Source: a virus
IMG/VR virus record: IMGVR_UViG_3300035171_000019
Span: 1-21,617 of that record
Reading direction: 5' to 3' (one strand)
DNA length: 21,617 nt
Shown here: piece after piece, positions 1 through 3,160 of the stretch
Layout: each line of letters starts with the position of its first letter
Position numbering within the stretch: the first letter of the stretch is position 1
Notes under the pieces: model-generated
Seen by the model: only the letters and a program-made list of their open reading frames with translations
Database searches by the model: none
Told to the model about the DNA's origin: nothing
Program-made: the position numbers and the translations under genes

Positions 1-44
1 TACAGACAAGCTGGTAACTCTCGTAGTTTTCTCTGCTCAGACCC

Positions 45-73
45 TTGCGGTGTACGTACACCTCCTGTAGACT
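45..73 (+). promoter_or_regulatory. Sigma70-like promoter with embedded palindromic operator
   Basis: A -35 box TTGCGG (45-50) and a -10 box TAGACT (68-73) are separated by exactly 17 bp, which fits an actinobacterial housekeeping-sigma promoter. Between them, and overlapping the last two bases of the -35 box, is a perfect 14-bp palindrome GGTGTACGTACACC (49-62). Transcription should start near position 80 and read into the small gene at 110. A palindrome in the spacer is where a dimeric repressor would block polymerase; that it is an operator is inferred. Confidence 0.65.
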
Positions 74-109
74 ATATACATAAGGGAGAGCGAGACAGGG
101 GAGATGGAA

Positions 110-322
110 ATGACCACCACGAAGATCGAGAAGCGGATCGCCAAGGCGCAGGGCCTGACGGACGAGCAGCTGGAGATCATGGGCCAGGTCGACGAGAGCG
201 AGGGCATCCGGAACGCGCTCCGCGAGGCCGCCGTGGCGGACGTGCTGGCCGAGCTGCTGGAAAGCCTGAAGGCCGGCGAGAGCCTGGAGGACGCTATCGC
301 CACCATCCAGGAGAACTTCTGA
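110..322 (+). CDS. Small acidic helical protein of unknown function
   Basis: This encodes about 70 residues, predicted to be almost entirely alpha-helical. The N-terminus is basic (TKIEKRIAKAQ) and the rest acidic (EQLEIMGQVDESEG, ELLESLKAGESLEDAI). I see no cysteines, membrane segment or catalytic motif. Two start codons are possible, 104 and 110. I prefer 110 because the AGGGGAG at 97-103 lies 6 bases before it, while it directly abuts the ATG at 104 (which would add two residues). The gene is one of only two on the plus strand. It has its own promoter (45-73) and terminator (322-351) and converges on the lysis genes, so it is probably expressed separately from the late operon, for example in early or lysogenic conditions. 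A small regulator or host-interaction protein is possible, but I do not recognise the family. Confidence 0.75.
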   Translation: MTTTKIEKRIAKAQGLTDEQLEIMGQVDESEGIRNALREAAVADVLAELLESLKAGESLEDAIATIQENF

Positions 323-351
323 AGGGCCGGGGCTACGGCCCCTTCCCTTTT
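322..351 (+). terminator. Rho-independent terminator with TACG tetraloop
   Basis: Directly at the stop codon of the plus-strand gene is a GGGGC stem (329-333) closed by the loop TACG and its partner GCCCC (338-342). A 2x2 internal loop leads to an outer stem of AAGGG (322-326) with CCCTT (345-349), and the T-run follows. C(UACG)G is an unusually stable RNA tetraloop. On the minus strand the hairpin lacks a good T-run, so it mainly serves the plus-strand gene. Confidence 0.75.
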
Positions 352-374
352 AGATCCTTTTGATACGTTTCATG

Positions 375-683
375 TCACTCCGGGCAGCCGAACTCCCGCC
401 GCAGCTTGTCGATCTCCGCCGCGAACCGGATGCCCGACTCAGTCTTCGGCGGCACCGCCCGCTGCGAGTTACCGATGTCGACCAGCAGTGAGCACCAGCG
501 CCGGTCGGACTCGATCCGGACCAGCTCGGCGCGCCGCTCAGACTCGATCCGCGCCGCCTCCGACCGCCGCTCGGCCTGCTTCTGCACATGGTTGGTGTAG
601 GCCACCCCGGATAGCGAGATCGCCACCACGGCGATGAACGCCAAGGCGATCGCGTACCAGAACGGCACGTACGGCTTGGTCAC
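375..683 (-). CDS. Single-pass membrane protein of the lysis cassette
   Basis: This encodes 102 residues. A hydrophobic segment at about residues 8-29 is a membrane anchor or uncleaved signal. It is followed by a charged helical stretch at about 34-62 with a repeated R-I-E-S-[E/D]-R-R motif, likely a coiled coil, and a C-terminal domain with Cys64 and Cys100. The start is GTG at 683, sharing GTGA with the holin stop, so translation is probably coupled. It is the last gene of the minus-strand late operon, behind endolysin and holin. From memory, actinophages often carry such a membrane protein here. A role in the last step of lysis, analogous to spanins, is plausible from position and topology, but no sequence feature proves it. 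Confidence 0.8.
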   Translation of the reverse strand: MTKPYVPFWYAIALAFIAVVAISLSGVAYTNHVQKQAERRSEAARIESERRAELVRIESDRRWCSLLVDIGNSQRAVPPKTESGIRFAAEIDKLRREFGCPE

Positions 684-946
684 GGCTCACCGTCCGCTGA
701 GGAGGAGGACGACCGCGAGTGCGATCCCGACGAGTGCGACGGCGACGACCGCCCGCGACCAGCCGAGTTCGAACCGGGCCGCAGCTGCCACACCCGGATC
801 CCTCCCGCGATGCCCAGCAGGCCCATGCAGGTGGTGAGCAGCTGCCCGTTCACGTTCCCGGAGACGATCTGATACGTGATCCCGCCCAGTCCCACCAGCA
901 CGCACCCCGCGTCCCGGATGTAGCCGATCAGCTTCTCGGGGCTCAC
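680..946 (-). CDS. Holin-like small membrane protein
   Basis: This encodes 88 residues. Two hydrophobic segments are visible, roughly residues 13-28 (around CVLVGLGGITYQIV) and 36-53 (around LLTTCMGLLGIAGGI), with a short polar turn between them. A hydrophilic Ser/Arg-rich tail fills the last 33 residues. Two helices plus a polar tail, directly after an endolysin, is the layout of class II-type holins, which permeabilise the membrane to release or activate the endolysin. The start is GTG at 946, 5 bases after the endolysin stop, with no strong Shine-Dalgarno sequence. The low-complexity tail coincides with a second ORF in another frame (687-791), which may explain its odd composition. Holin is called from topology and position, not from recognised similarity. 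Confidence 0.7.
   Translation of the reverse strand: MSPEKLIGYIRDAGCVLVGLGGITYQIVSGNVNGQLLTTCMGLLGIAGGIRVWQLRPGSNSAGRGRSSPSHSSGSHSRSSSSSADGEP
687..791 (-). CDS. Nested 34-residue single-TM ORF inside the holin gene
   Basis: In a different minus-strand frame, inside the 3' part of the holin-like gene, a GTG at 791 is preceded by GGGAGGG with 8 bases spacing. It opens a 34-residue frame ending at the TGA at 687. The peptide starts VAAAARFELGWSRAV and continues into a strongly hydrophobic helix, VVAVALVGIALAVVLLL, ending in SGR. A hydrophobic helix preceded by a short charged segment, together with a good ribosome site, is better than a chance shadow frame. It could be an extra holin, an antiholin or another small lysis protein. 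Short nested frames are hard to prove, so confidence is moderate. Confidence 0.5.
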   Translation of the reverse strand: MAAAARFELGWSRAVVAVALVGIALAVVLLLSGR

Positions 947-951
947 TCACG

Positions 952-1788
952 TCACGCGGTGGCTTCGACGGTGAGCTGGCCGCCGAGCACGGTCACGGTG
1001 CCGGCGAACTCGCCGCCCTGGCCCGGGTCGCCTTTCGGCCCCGGGTCACCCTTCGGGCCTGGATCTCCCTTGGGACCCGGGTCACCCTTCGGTCCGGGCT
1101 TGCTGCCGACGTTCTCGATGGCCAGGTCGCACTGCATCTTGAACGCGTGCCAGCCGGTGATCATCGTGTGCGGGCCCTCGCCGTACGACGCGCGGGACGC
1201 GTTGACCGCGGCCTCGGTCTTCGGCCCGTACTCGCCGTCGACCGTGCCGACCGGGAAGCCGAGGTCGCCCAGCACGTACTGCCAGAACTTGACCGGCTCG
1301 CCGGAGTCACCCTTCTTGGGCAGGAACATGTCGTCTCCCGTCAGCTCGCTCAGCCGGTAGTCGAAGGTCGTGTCGTTGTCGGCAGCCTGGCTGTAGGCAC
1401 CGGAGAAGTGGACGTGCTCGGTGTGTGCCGACGGGCCGGTGTAGTCCTCGGCTCCCCAGCCGTTCGACGCCTTGTAGATCTTCCGGTTGTAGATCATGTA
1501 GCGCAGGACCGAGGCGACGTCCGGCAGCGCACGGATGTGGTCGACGACCAGCTGCGCGTTCCCGCCGGGCCAGCTCAGGTCCGAGTCCATGTCCCAGGCG
1601 CGAACCTCGTCGAGCGAATCGCCATCCTTGTACTCGGCGTTCCCGGTCAGGTCCGGGTTGTGGCCGGAGGTACCCGACGCGTGGACCTGGTCGCCGATCG
1701 TGCCGTCCGAGGTCTTGTCGCGGCCCGGGAACGCGTCGTCGACCTGGGCGCGCAGGTTCTGCAGGCCTTTGGTGAGTGCCCAGCCCAT
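952..1788 (-). CDS. Endolysin: LAS-type peptidase + PG-binding + collagen-like segment
   Basis: This encodes 278 residues. The frame stays open further upstream, but ATG 1788 has AGGAGG 4 bases before it and lies just after the stop of the preceding gene. Residues 1-140 form a hedgehog/DD-peptidase (LAS/M15-like) zinc peptidase domain. Likely ligands are His43 in SGHNPD, Asp66 or Asp68 in AWDMD, and His125/His127 in HTEHVHF. Residues about 155-215 look like a PG_binding_1 domain (KFWQYVLGDLGFPVGTVDG). Residues 232-256 are a perfect run of Gly-Pro-Lys/Gly-Asp-Pro triplets, followed by a short beta-like tail. The protein should cut host peptidoglycan peptide cross-links or stems at the end of infection, and the holin gene follows directly. 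The collagen-like run is unusual for an endolysin. The alternative is a virion-attached lysin, but gene order favours the lysis role. Confidence 0.85.
   Translation of the reverse strand: MGWALTKGLQNLRAQVDDAFPGRDKTSDGTIGDQVHASGTSGHNPDLTGNAEYKDGDSLDEVRAWDMDSDLSWPGGNAQLVVDHIRALPDVASVLRYMIYNRKIYKASNGWGAEDYTGPSAHTEHVHFSGAYSQAADNDTTFDYRLSELTGDDMFLPKKGDSGEPVKFWQYVLGDLGFPVGTVDGEYGPKTEAAVNASRASYGEGPHTMITGWHAFKMQCDLAIENVGSKPGPKGDPGPKGDPGPKGDPGPKGDPGQGGEFAGTVTVLGGQLTVEATA
1021..1095 (-). repeat. Collagen-like Gly-X-Y repeat (18-bp DNA period)
   Basis: About four copies of an 18-bp unit encode GPKGDP, giving eight Gly-X-Y triplets plus a final Gly in the endolysin. Synonymous differences between copies (GGT/GGA/GGC for Gly, for example) show that the amino-acid repeat, rather than just the DNA, has been kept. 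Confidence 0.9.
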
Positions 1789-1796
1789 CGTGCCTC

Positions 1797-2060
1797 CTAG
1801 GTCGGGTCGGTCTGGTTGAGGATCCAGGCGGGCCATGGGCCGTCCAACGCGGCGTCGAGCCGGGTCAGCCACTCGGCGTCGGGGACGACGCCCTTGTCGT
1901 TGAGCGCCTTCATGATCACGCCGAGCATGACCAGGATCGTGAGATCGACCTTGTACAGCTCCGGGCCGACCAGCAGCAGCGATACCCCCAGCTGCCCGGT
2001 CGTGGTGGCCTGCTGCCGGCGCAGCAGCTCCTCGACGTACGTCTCGACGAACTGGGCCAT
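1797..2060 (-). CDS. Small hypothetical protein upstream of endolysin
   Basis: This encodes 87 residues. The N-terminus is a charged helix (QFVETYVEELLRRQQ), the middle is hydrophobic (LGVSLLLVGPELYKVDLTIL, then VMLGVIMKAL), and the C-terminus is Trp-rich (AEWLTRLDAALDGPWPAW). The middle could hold one or two membrane-associated helices. ATG 2060 has GGAGG four bases upstream. It lies 11 bases after the fibre-like gene and 8 bases before the endolysin start, in the same operon, so it could belong either to the distal tail or to lysis. I do not recognise the family. An additional holin-type protein is possible but unproven. Confidence 0.75.
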   Translation of the reverse strand: MAQFVETYVEELLRRQQATTTGQLGVSLLLVGPELYKVDLTILVMLGVIMKALNDKGVVPDAEWLTRLDAALDGPWPAWILNQTDPT

Positions 2061-2071
2061 GACGCCTCCGA

Positions 2072-2617
2072 TCAGAACGGAACGCAGTTGAGTCGCCGGG
2101 TCGCGAACGTGCCCGTGCCGCCGGAGACCCGGTAGGACATCGCGAACGTGTTAGTCCCCGCGGTCAGGCCCGTCTCGACGTAGGCCAGACCGTGGAACAG
2201 CTGCCCGGTCTGGTCGTACGAGATCGCCCAGCTGTCCGACGCTGCGATCGTGCTGGCGCCGGAAACTGCAACGCTCGTCCACACGTTGGTGCCCGCGACG
2301 CTGGTCGACTGGCGGCAGTGAAAGGAGAGCAGCGCCTTGGTCCCGGTGCCGATCGGGAACGACGGGCCGGCCGTGCCGCCGCCGCCGGAGAGCGTCGACG
2401 TGTACGTGGTCGACGTGGTTGTTTCGCCGCTGAGTTGGGCGAACTGGCCCGGTGCGCGCTGAACGATCGAGTTGCTGCCGTTGCCCGCGAAGATGCTGCT
2501 CACCTGGCTGGATAGTGCCGGGGCGGTCATCAGCAGGTTGTCGCGCACGGAGGCGTTCCACTGTGCGGCGGTCAACGCGGTGCTGGCCACAGCGGTGAGC
2601 GGCGTTGTCCAAGCCAA
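2072..2617 (-). CDS. Putative tail fibre / minor tail protein
   Basis: This encodes 181 residues. The N-terminus (MAWTTPLTAVASTALTAAQW, then NASVRDNLLMTAPA) is a recurrent leader that I associate with distal tail or fibre proteins of actinophages, where it probably anchors the protein to the tail. The remaining residues, about 50-181, are Ser/Thr/Gly-rich and beta-predicted, with the look of a compact jelly-roll that could bind the host surface. The start is a TTG at 2617, supported by GGAGGG 7 bases upstream and by its position just after the stop of the previous gene. It is the last clearly tail-type gene before lysis. The adsorption role is inferred. Confidence 0.7.
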   Translation of the reverse strand: MAWTTPLTAVASTALTAAQWNASVRDNLLMTAPALSSQVSSIFAGNGSNSIVQRAPGQFAQLSGETTTSTTYTSTLSGGGGTAGPSFPIGTGTKALLSFHCRQSTSVAGTNVWTSVAVSGASTIAASDSWAISYDQTGQLFHGLAYVETGLTAGTNTFAMSYRVSGGTGTFATRRLNCVPF

Positions 2618-2620
2618 GAA

Positions 2621-3160
2621 TCAGCCCTCCAGTTCGGGGTGCGGCGAAAACGAGAGGGTGCCGTCGGGCTCGACGAACGGCAGGTCGTGGTCGTGCGCGA
2701 GGGCACGCGCGGCGCGCAGCTGGCGGCGCGGGTCAGCGGCGGGCAGTACGTCCAGCAGGAGACCGTCCACGGCCACGCCCTCGACCTCGTGCAGGATCAG
2801 GGTCCGCTCGGTCAGCGCCTTCCACTCCGGTGGCAGGCAGTCGTGCGCGGCATTCTCGGCGAGCAGGTCTTCGAGGTGCTCGCCGGGCAGCCAGTTCTGG
2901 GTGCGCCGGACCGGGCGCATGCCGAGGATCGCTTCGATGGCCTGCGGGTCGGGCGGCCAGATCACGACGGTGCTGTAGCCGCAGGCGTCCGGCCCGCCGA
3001 GGCACAGGAACTCGACCTGCCCGGGTTCCAGCGCGATCGCATTGGTGCACCACGGGCGGACGCAACGGGCGACCCAGCGGCCCCAGTTCGCCTCGGCGTA
3101 CGCAACGCCCGCGATGGCCACCTCGGCGGGCGTCTCGATCACGAAGCTCGGACCAGACAT
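2621..3160 (-). CDS. Zinc-ribbon-like protein of the tail module
   Basis: This encodes 179 residues. Four cysteines at positions 33, 38, 53 and 60 (RCVRPWC, then FLC, then DACGY) form a C-x4-C...C-x6-C arrangement typical of a small zinc-binding ribbon. The rest is mixed alpha/beta without a recognised enzyme motif and ends Pro/Glu-rich. ATG 3160 is preceded by AAGGGG at 6 bases. It sits between the minor tail protein and the fibre-like gene and is probably a minor virion component or assembly factor, but the function is unknown to me. Confidence 0.75.
   Translation of the reverse strand: MSGPSFVIETPAEVAIAGVAYAEANWGRWVARCVRPWCTNAIALEPGQVEFLCLGGPDACGYSTVVIWPPDPQAIEAILGMRPVRRTQNWLPGEHLEDLLAENAAHDCLPPEWKALTERTLILHEVEGVAVDGLLLDVLPAADPRRQLRAARALAHDHDLPFVEPDGTLSFSPHPELEG

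Follow-up and report, generated by a model that had tools for sequence, protein, structure and literature searches.

Near the left end of a virus fragment, a perfect 14-bp palindrome lies between two putative promoter boxes, and the question is which protein, if any, binds it. The stretch that we analysed (the window) is an entire virus record, a linear fragment of 21,617 bases whose left end lies 48 bp before the palindrome. An earlier, sequence-only reading took the palindrome to be the site of a repressor dimer in a well-formed promoter, and suggested that the small plus-strand gene behind it was under phage (immunity-type) or host control, separate from the late operon. With a probability of about 0.82, we believe that GGTGTACGTACACC is the operator of a phage-encoded, Arc-like ribbon-helix-helix (RHH) protein of the HRSVR class, that it serves the local repression of the small gene, and that the promoter is a recombinant with exchangeable operator specificity. 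What is new here is the likely repressor family, the pairing of recognition strands with operators, and the hybrid promoter.

The palindrome and its promoter

The letters of the window and a palindrome scan both put the palindrome at exactly 49–62. It overlaps the end of the -35 box TTGCGG by 2 bp and occupies part of the 17-bp spacer between TTGCGG and TAGACT, as the sequence-only reading had described. The features at this end of the window are as follows.

1–4: TACA, possibly the truncated end of the operator copy on the repressor side (the third)
45–50, plus strand: -35 box TTGCGG
49–62: putative operator GGTGTACGTACACC, a perfect 14-bp palindrome
66–67: probable mosaic junction
68–73, plus strand: -10 box TAGACT
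77–103, plus strand: conserved 5' leader TACATAAGGGAGAGCGAGACAGGGGAG, including a Shine-Dalgarno-like GGGGAG at 98–103
110–322, plus strand: gene for a small acidic protein of 70 aa with a net charge of -8
324–341, plus strand: terminator-like hairpin whose tail is T-rich, separating the small gene from the convergent late operon
375–1872, minus strand: left end of the convergent late operon, with the endolysin at 952–1872

The small gene most likely starts at the ATG at 110 instead of the one at 104, because a related viral contig (G001) has ACG at the position of the window's first ATG.

The description of the promoter as well-formed holds in part. TTGCGG matches the E. coli consensus at 3/6 positions and TAGACT at 4/6, and a sigma-70 scanner that uses this consensus found no promoter in bases 1–3000. 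By that measure the promoter is weak. However, comparative data lend support to both boxes, as 18 of 20 relatives have TTGNGG directly against the operator and the same TAGACT hexamer stands before a common leader in three other loci (L012, L015 and L070).

We considered whether the palindrome arose by chance, or is a feature of DNA structure without a binding protein. The whole window has 6 perfect palindromes that are 14 bp or longer, where shuffles average 3.68, and the mere existence of one is unremarkable and weak evidence alone. For bases 1–110, 0.72% of 5,000 shuffles contain such a palindrome (probability 0.0072). GGTGTACGTACACC is single-copy in the 21.6-kb record when up to 3 mismatches are allowed. 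A 21-mer from upstream in the window was found in no other contig among the viral contigs searched, and the matches that blastn of bases 1–400 gave among GenBank phages, in 21 records, were all short and weak (best E 0.03). A search of the open-licence literature found the exact 12-mer in one unrelated aptamer paper.

The site in other viruses

A scan of viral contigs found the exact 14-mer in at least 119 stretches. Among the matches listed, 14 are arrays, with a second site nearby, and 105 are singles. An RHH protein, recognised by HRSVR-like and WYLRR-like patterns in a small protein, is encoded within 400 bp of 12 of the 14 listed arrays (L162 and L218 are the two without) and of 0 of the 105 listed singles. 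The singles elsewhere look unrelated, which favours chance, and 43 of the 105 among the matches listed carry TTGNGG by codon coincidence. These 43 are all in low-GC contigs (for example L119, L161 and L225), where TTGNGGTGTACGTACACC lies inside the frame MAGVRTPQRQFSSC, which we take to be ribonucleotide-reductase-like. A bare 18-mer match is therefore no evidence by itself.

Searching from the protein side, with 9 RHH proteins as queries, gave 35 viral loci. The operator (palindrome GTGTACGTACAC) lies upstream in all 20 loci whose protein has (Q/K)HRS(V/I)R, in L239 just as a 1-mismatch copy. With up to 3 mismatches allowed, it is upstream in 0 of the 15 relatives whose strand motif differs. 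The operator scan had already turned up 11 of the 20 contigs, so the independent part of this result is 9/9 protein-only loci versus 0/15. In every one of the 20 the site stands beside a divergent Arc-like RHH gene, and this supports the proposal of a repressor-dimer site. The phasing on the -35 box is also supported, with the palindrome abutting TTGNGG in the window's phase in 18 of the 20. That the same site recurs in the same promoter phase, and that a string with 17 specified bases has a crude probability of about 2.5e-6 in the window (uniform bases), makes chance a very improbable explanation.

In the relatives the operator copies are spaced 23–25 bp apart. Site 1 abuts TTGNGG, site 2 overlaps the -10 box and site 3 precedes the divergent gene. 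Counting copies with up to 3 mismatches, 19 of the 20 relatives have at least 2 and the window has one, with no second copy over its -10 box. Because this second site is missing, repression in the window may be weaker than in the relatives. The TACA at 1–4 falls at the position that the third copy has in the relatives' arrays and could be its cut end, a weak suggestion from four bases.

The RHH family and its probable operators

The RHH proteins of the HRSVR-type loci are about 60 aa long, Arc-like and divergently encoded, with the strand motif HRSVR or HRSIR. All three that were scanned match PHROG phrog_6506, "Arc-like repressor" (E 2e-8 to 1e-5), and for the same three proteins no Pfam RHH model reached E 1. 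The monomer model has helices at 16–25 and 31–42 and no strand, with a mean pLDDT of 76. It had no Foldseek match in the PDB, and a profile search found no PDB relative of note. Neither tblastn of one RHH protein against phages and plasmids (none at E 1e-3) nor blastn of one array against phages (one short unrelated match, E 1) added relatives. We found no paper on the family by title or abstract in the open-licence literature, and it is not described in the excerpts of PMC6550527, PMC11065993 and PMC10023795. The 20 viral loci have 65–74% GC and the genomic members of this type are in genomes of the class Actinomycetes; the viral contigs probably infect actinobacteria.

Those genomic members come from 394 genomes of the class Actinomycetes, in which 8 RHH matches passed 1e-8. 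Three are HRSVR-type, and all three have the window's site array in the same TTGNGG phase. The other five are of other types and have other repeated sites: GGTGTAGCTACACC with the ARQIR type (2 loci), imperfect TAGCTACACC repeats in L332 (PRQIR, identified by eye), two copies of GGTGTGGCCACACC in L333 (KHGVR), and two GGTGGC..GCCACC-type repeats in L334 (KQRVVR, identified by eye). A further 19 weaker genome matches were kept outside every count. Seven of these have a clear RHH signature (L272, L275, L276, L277, L278, L281 and, less clearly, L285), and the other 12 had none where our scripts looked. The TRPIR-type proteins of L278 and L281 go with GTGTAGCTACAC.

A different perfect palindrome, at least 12 bp long, lies upstream in 12 of the 15 viral loci with other motifs. 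It is TGTGCATATGCACA-type with NRVVR in 11 of them, some of these loci being close copies, and TCTGTGTACACAGA in L257. The NRVVR-type RHH genes of L258–L267 and L270 have (T)GTGCATATGCAC(A) palindromes upstream, in a similar divergent layout.

RHH regulators such as AmrZ place a pair of antiparallel strands in the major groove (PMC3325190, in part), so the strand residues would set specificity. AmrZ is a chromosomal Pseudomonas regulator, and the likeness to our proteins that we draw on is in the RHH strand mode. We propose the following pairs of strand and operator centre: HRSVR with TACGTA, RQIR or RPIR with TAGCTA, NRVVR with GCATATGC, and KHGVR with GTGGCCAC. This recognition code is just a proposal because several of the pairs rest on 1–3 loci. 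A wider reading would be that a large RHH repressor family of actinobacterial mobile elements has a readable strand/operator code, that recombination within core promoters swaps specificity, and that the window is one such hybrid, with the leader and a possibly anti-defence small gene retained through the swaps. We hold this wider reading tentatively, with the odds somewhat against it. In the RHH set, recognition strands come naturally paired with operators, a potential basis for a tested RHH DNA-recognition code, and the set could help locate small phage genes under such tight control.

A probable hybrid promoter

We found the small protein in one other viral contig, G001 (39,974 bases; L002 is its locus). 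The two proteins are identical at 70/70 residues, and their genes have 2 synonymous differences. BLAST similarity to G001 begins at base 67 of the window. Bases 1–66 align best with HRSVR-type promoters, with 23 identical nucleotides in a row (CCCTTGCGGTGTACGTACACCTC), and their alignment with G001 is poor. To the left of the junction G001 has a different operator, the inverted repeat TTTACTGTACCACAG...CTGTGGTACAGTAAA, with one arm over the -10 box and the other before a divergent 68-aa ORF. This ORF has a sub-threshold Pfam match to Rv0623-like transcription factors (E 0.0015), and we judge it to be RHH-like from its residue pattern. G001's RHH family has 12 viral loci, G001 counted, and 10 of them have a G001-type site upstream (up to 4/15 mismatches; shuffled mean 0.33/12). 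From base 67 on the window matches G001, and bases 1–66 resemble HRSVR-type promoters. Most simply read, the window promoter looks like a recombinant, with an HRSVR-type -35 box and operator joined to a conserved -10 box, leader and gene.

The leader, TACATAAGG(G/A)(A/C)GA(G/A)CGAGA, is in 7 records (the window, G001, L012, L015, L070, L298 and L307), gathered by pattern scans plus later loci. The L012 locus is also present in Paractinoplanes atraurantiacus (L101). The perfect palindromes in front of the leader differ, being GTAGACTAGTCTAC in L012 and GGCTTGCAGATCTGCAAGCC in L015, and the leader promoter of L070 has repeats of GTAGACTGGCTAC. L015 and L070 form a second pair with the same leader and different operators, and their small proteins are identical at 54/58 residues. 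Leader matches at L014, L100, L102, L103 and L320 were dropped as chance by context. In 354 Micromonosporaceae genomes, the leader at up to 2 mismatches was found in 12, little above the 7 with the reversed control, and the exact leader in one (G009).

Small minus-strand ORFs adjoin GTAGAC-type operators in L070 at about 880–680 (MTELTLIELG...) and in L101 at about 4560–4372 (VTKNETTLAELG...). They are candidate cognate regulators of a second class, with HTH indicated by PHROG in L070 alone.

If the promoter is recombinant, the operator may have come in without its repressor, which would leave the promoter constitutive or ruled by the host or another prophage. There is no repressor gene in the 48 bp to the left of the site, and the window has just one site of the usual array. 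Even so we think an orphan site quite improbable, as the relatives have a likely regulator ORF directly upstream. In the 20 HRSVR loci this ORF is an RHH gene; in L015 (HTH_17) and L070 (phrog_2311) it has a significant HTH match, and in G001 a sub-threshold Pfam match; the upstream ORF of L101 has no significant Pfam or PHROG match. The window's own RHH gene would lie to the left of base 1. As for a possible host, TTGYGGTGTACGTACACC at full match is absent in the 354 genomes searched of Micromonosporaceae, a family with members that have the leader; 3 genomes match at 1 mismatch. Between the phage and host control that had been offered as alternatives, the comparison with the RHH loci favours phage-encoded control.

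The small gene and its neighbours

The small protein has no Pfam match, its best PHROG match has E 0.038, and tblastn against GenBank phages gave no match. Its predicted structure is a helical model, and fold searches gave no usable match. Those genes to the right that were scanned against Pfam and PHROG form part of a convergent late operon on the minus strand, which encodes an endolysin and a tape-measure protein. The ORFs at 375–1872 other than the endolysin look membrane-protein-like, in our judgement from the sequence. The idea that the small gene is controlled apart from this operon is supported by comparison with the relatives.

A small acidic gene without a significant family or fold match, with its own promoter, an inverted repeat inside the core and a small repressor in the relatives, might also be an aca-acr-like unit. 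The acidic protein would then be an anti-defence protein whose synthesis is limited to an early burst, until a small autorepressor shuts it off. Aca sites are inverted repeats inside the core promoter, bound by a cognate small repressor in local autoregulation (PMC9410906, in part), so the likeness extends from the position of the repeat before a small-gene unit to the small repressor and the local circuit. However, the Pfam, PHROG and fold searches of the small protein showed no anti-CRISPR homology and there is no known Acr here. In the Aca families described in the abstract of PMC9410906, the proteins are of the HTH type and their genes follow acr within one operon, whereas here the repressor is RHH and divergent. 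The small gene is followed by the terminator-like hairpin and the convergent operon, with no aca gene. We consider such a unit unlikely.

Two observations concern the late genes of related viruses. The homology to G001 has a gap at window positions 971–1351. It falls in the 3' part of the endolysin gene, and the sequence affected includes a Gly-X-Y stretch that is collagen-like. Another phage (L006/G005, a 44-kb record) is about 97% identical to the window across 3.6 kb of late genes; it has no TAYATAAGG leader anywhere and has other DNA at the expected place of the small gene.

Proposed control and known systems

In the reading that we favour, with an HRSVR-class RHH protein as the repressor, RHH dimers probably bind GGTGTACGTACACC, between the -35 and -10 boxes, with their N-terminal strand placed in the major groove. 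The bound protein would block RNA polymerase at the small-gene promoter, and the gene at 110–322 would be off unless the repressor is scarce, as it may be soon after infection or on induction. In the relatives, the repressor gene is divergent and on the far side of the site. Because it carries its own copy of the site, the circuit would be local and self-limiting. Related viruses would keep the promoter, leader and gene and vary the pair of repressor and landing site in front. Exchange of repressor and operator is how temperate phages alter control or immunity specificity. Few cases are known in which the cut falls so cleanly within a single promoter and the protein encoded downstream is identical.

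Phage P22 has Arc, an autorepressor of the RHH class with its operator between -35 and -10 of Pant, where it blocks polymerase in the way proposed here. The excerpts of PMC2629481 describe the "ant moron" of P22 immI as an independently expressed unit in the late region, guarded by small repressors and varying in content between phages, and the kinship of Arc with RHH proteins is given in part of PMC3325190. The likeness to P22, with its Arc and Mnt repressors, is in a small repressor guarding an independently expressed unit set among late genes. Here the RHH gene is divergent, the arrays are spaced 23–25 bp, no antirepressor was seen, and the sequence kinship with Arc is through phrog_6506 alone. 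We regard the P22 moron as the closest published analogue in layout and Aca autorepression as the closest in logic.

An alternative is that the site belongs to a superinfection-immunity switch, in which the RHH protein is the main lysogeny repressor and the site defines the immunity group. Exchangeable pairs of repressor and operator at a fixed place are as in heteroimmune phages, and the earlier "immunity-type" label fits the architecture in this respect. Some of the relatives are temperate or integrated, as G312 (which has an array) and G001 (which shares the leader) encode a phage integrase (Pfam PF00589), and L101 lies within a 545-kb bacterial contig. In G315 and G317 the genes beyond the forward side reach terminase, and likewise in G318, where the terminase was read from the translation and has no Pfam match. 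However, G312 also has a separate DUF5753/HTH regulator gene nearby, and a small single-domain RHH protein is more like accessory repressors than CI. Each contig has one array, and dispersed sites at early promoters or of the stoperator kind are absent. Across the full length of the 20 contigs, matches to the site (up to 1 mismatch) form a single local array of 1–3 copies within about 70 bp. G318 alone has two further 1-mismatch matches, which equal its reversed-pattern control; the control is zero in the other 19. We see the immunity switch as possible but doubtful.

Cluster A mycobacteriophages have diverged repressors with matching operator motifs, at 20–30 sites genome-wide (PMC6550527, in part). 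They resemble the present case in that related phages have diverged repressors and matching operators, and differ in that the 20–30 sites are dispersed there, where we see one local array. The locality of the sites argues for a local, self-limiting circuit over a genome-wide repressor. The sequence-only reading had suggested a search for more copies of the site in the genome. The fragment holds none, which does not refute an operator, because the copies in the relatives are also local and sit in one array of about 70 bp per contig.

A genome-wide CI-type regulon was set aside since the sites are local, with G004 as an exception that has another palindrome. This contig (locus L071) has 8 dispersed GTAGACTGGTCTAC-like palindromes at up to 2 mismatches (1569, 7407, 31985, 32661, 34354, 58838, 59146 and 59454). 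Four of them sit immediately upstream of an ATG, where leaderless promoters would place them, and the eight together suggest a dispersed regulon of another kind.
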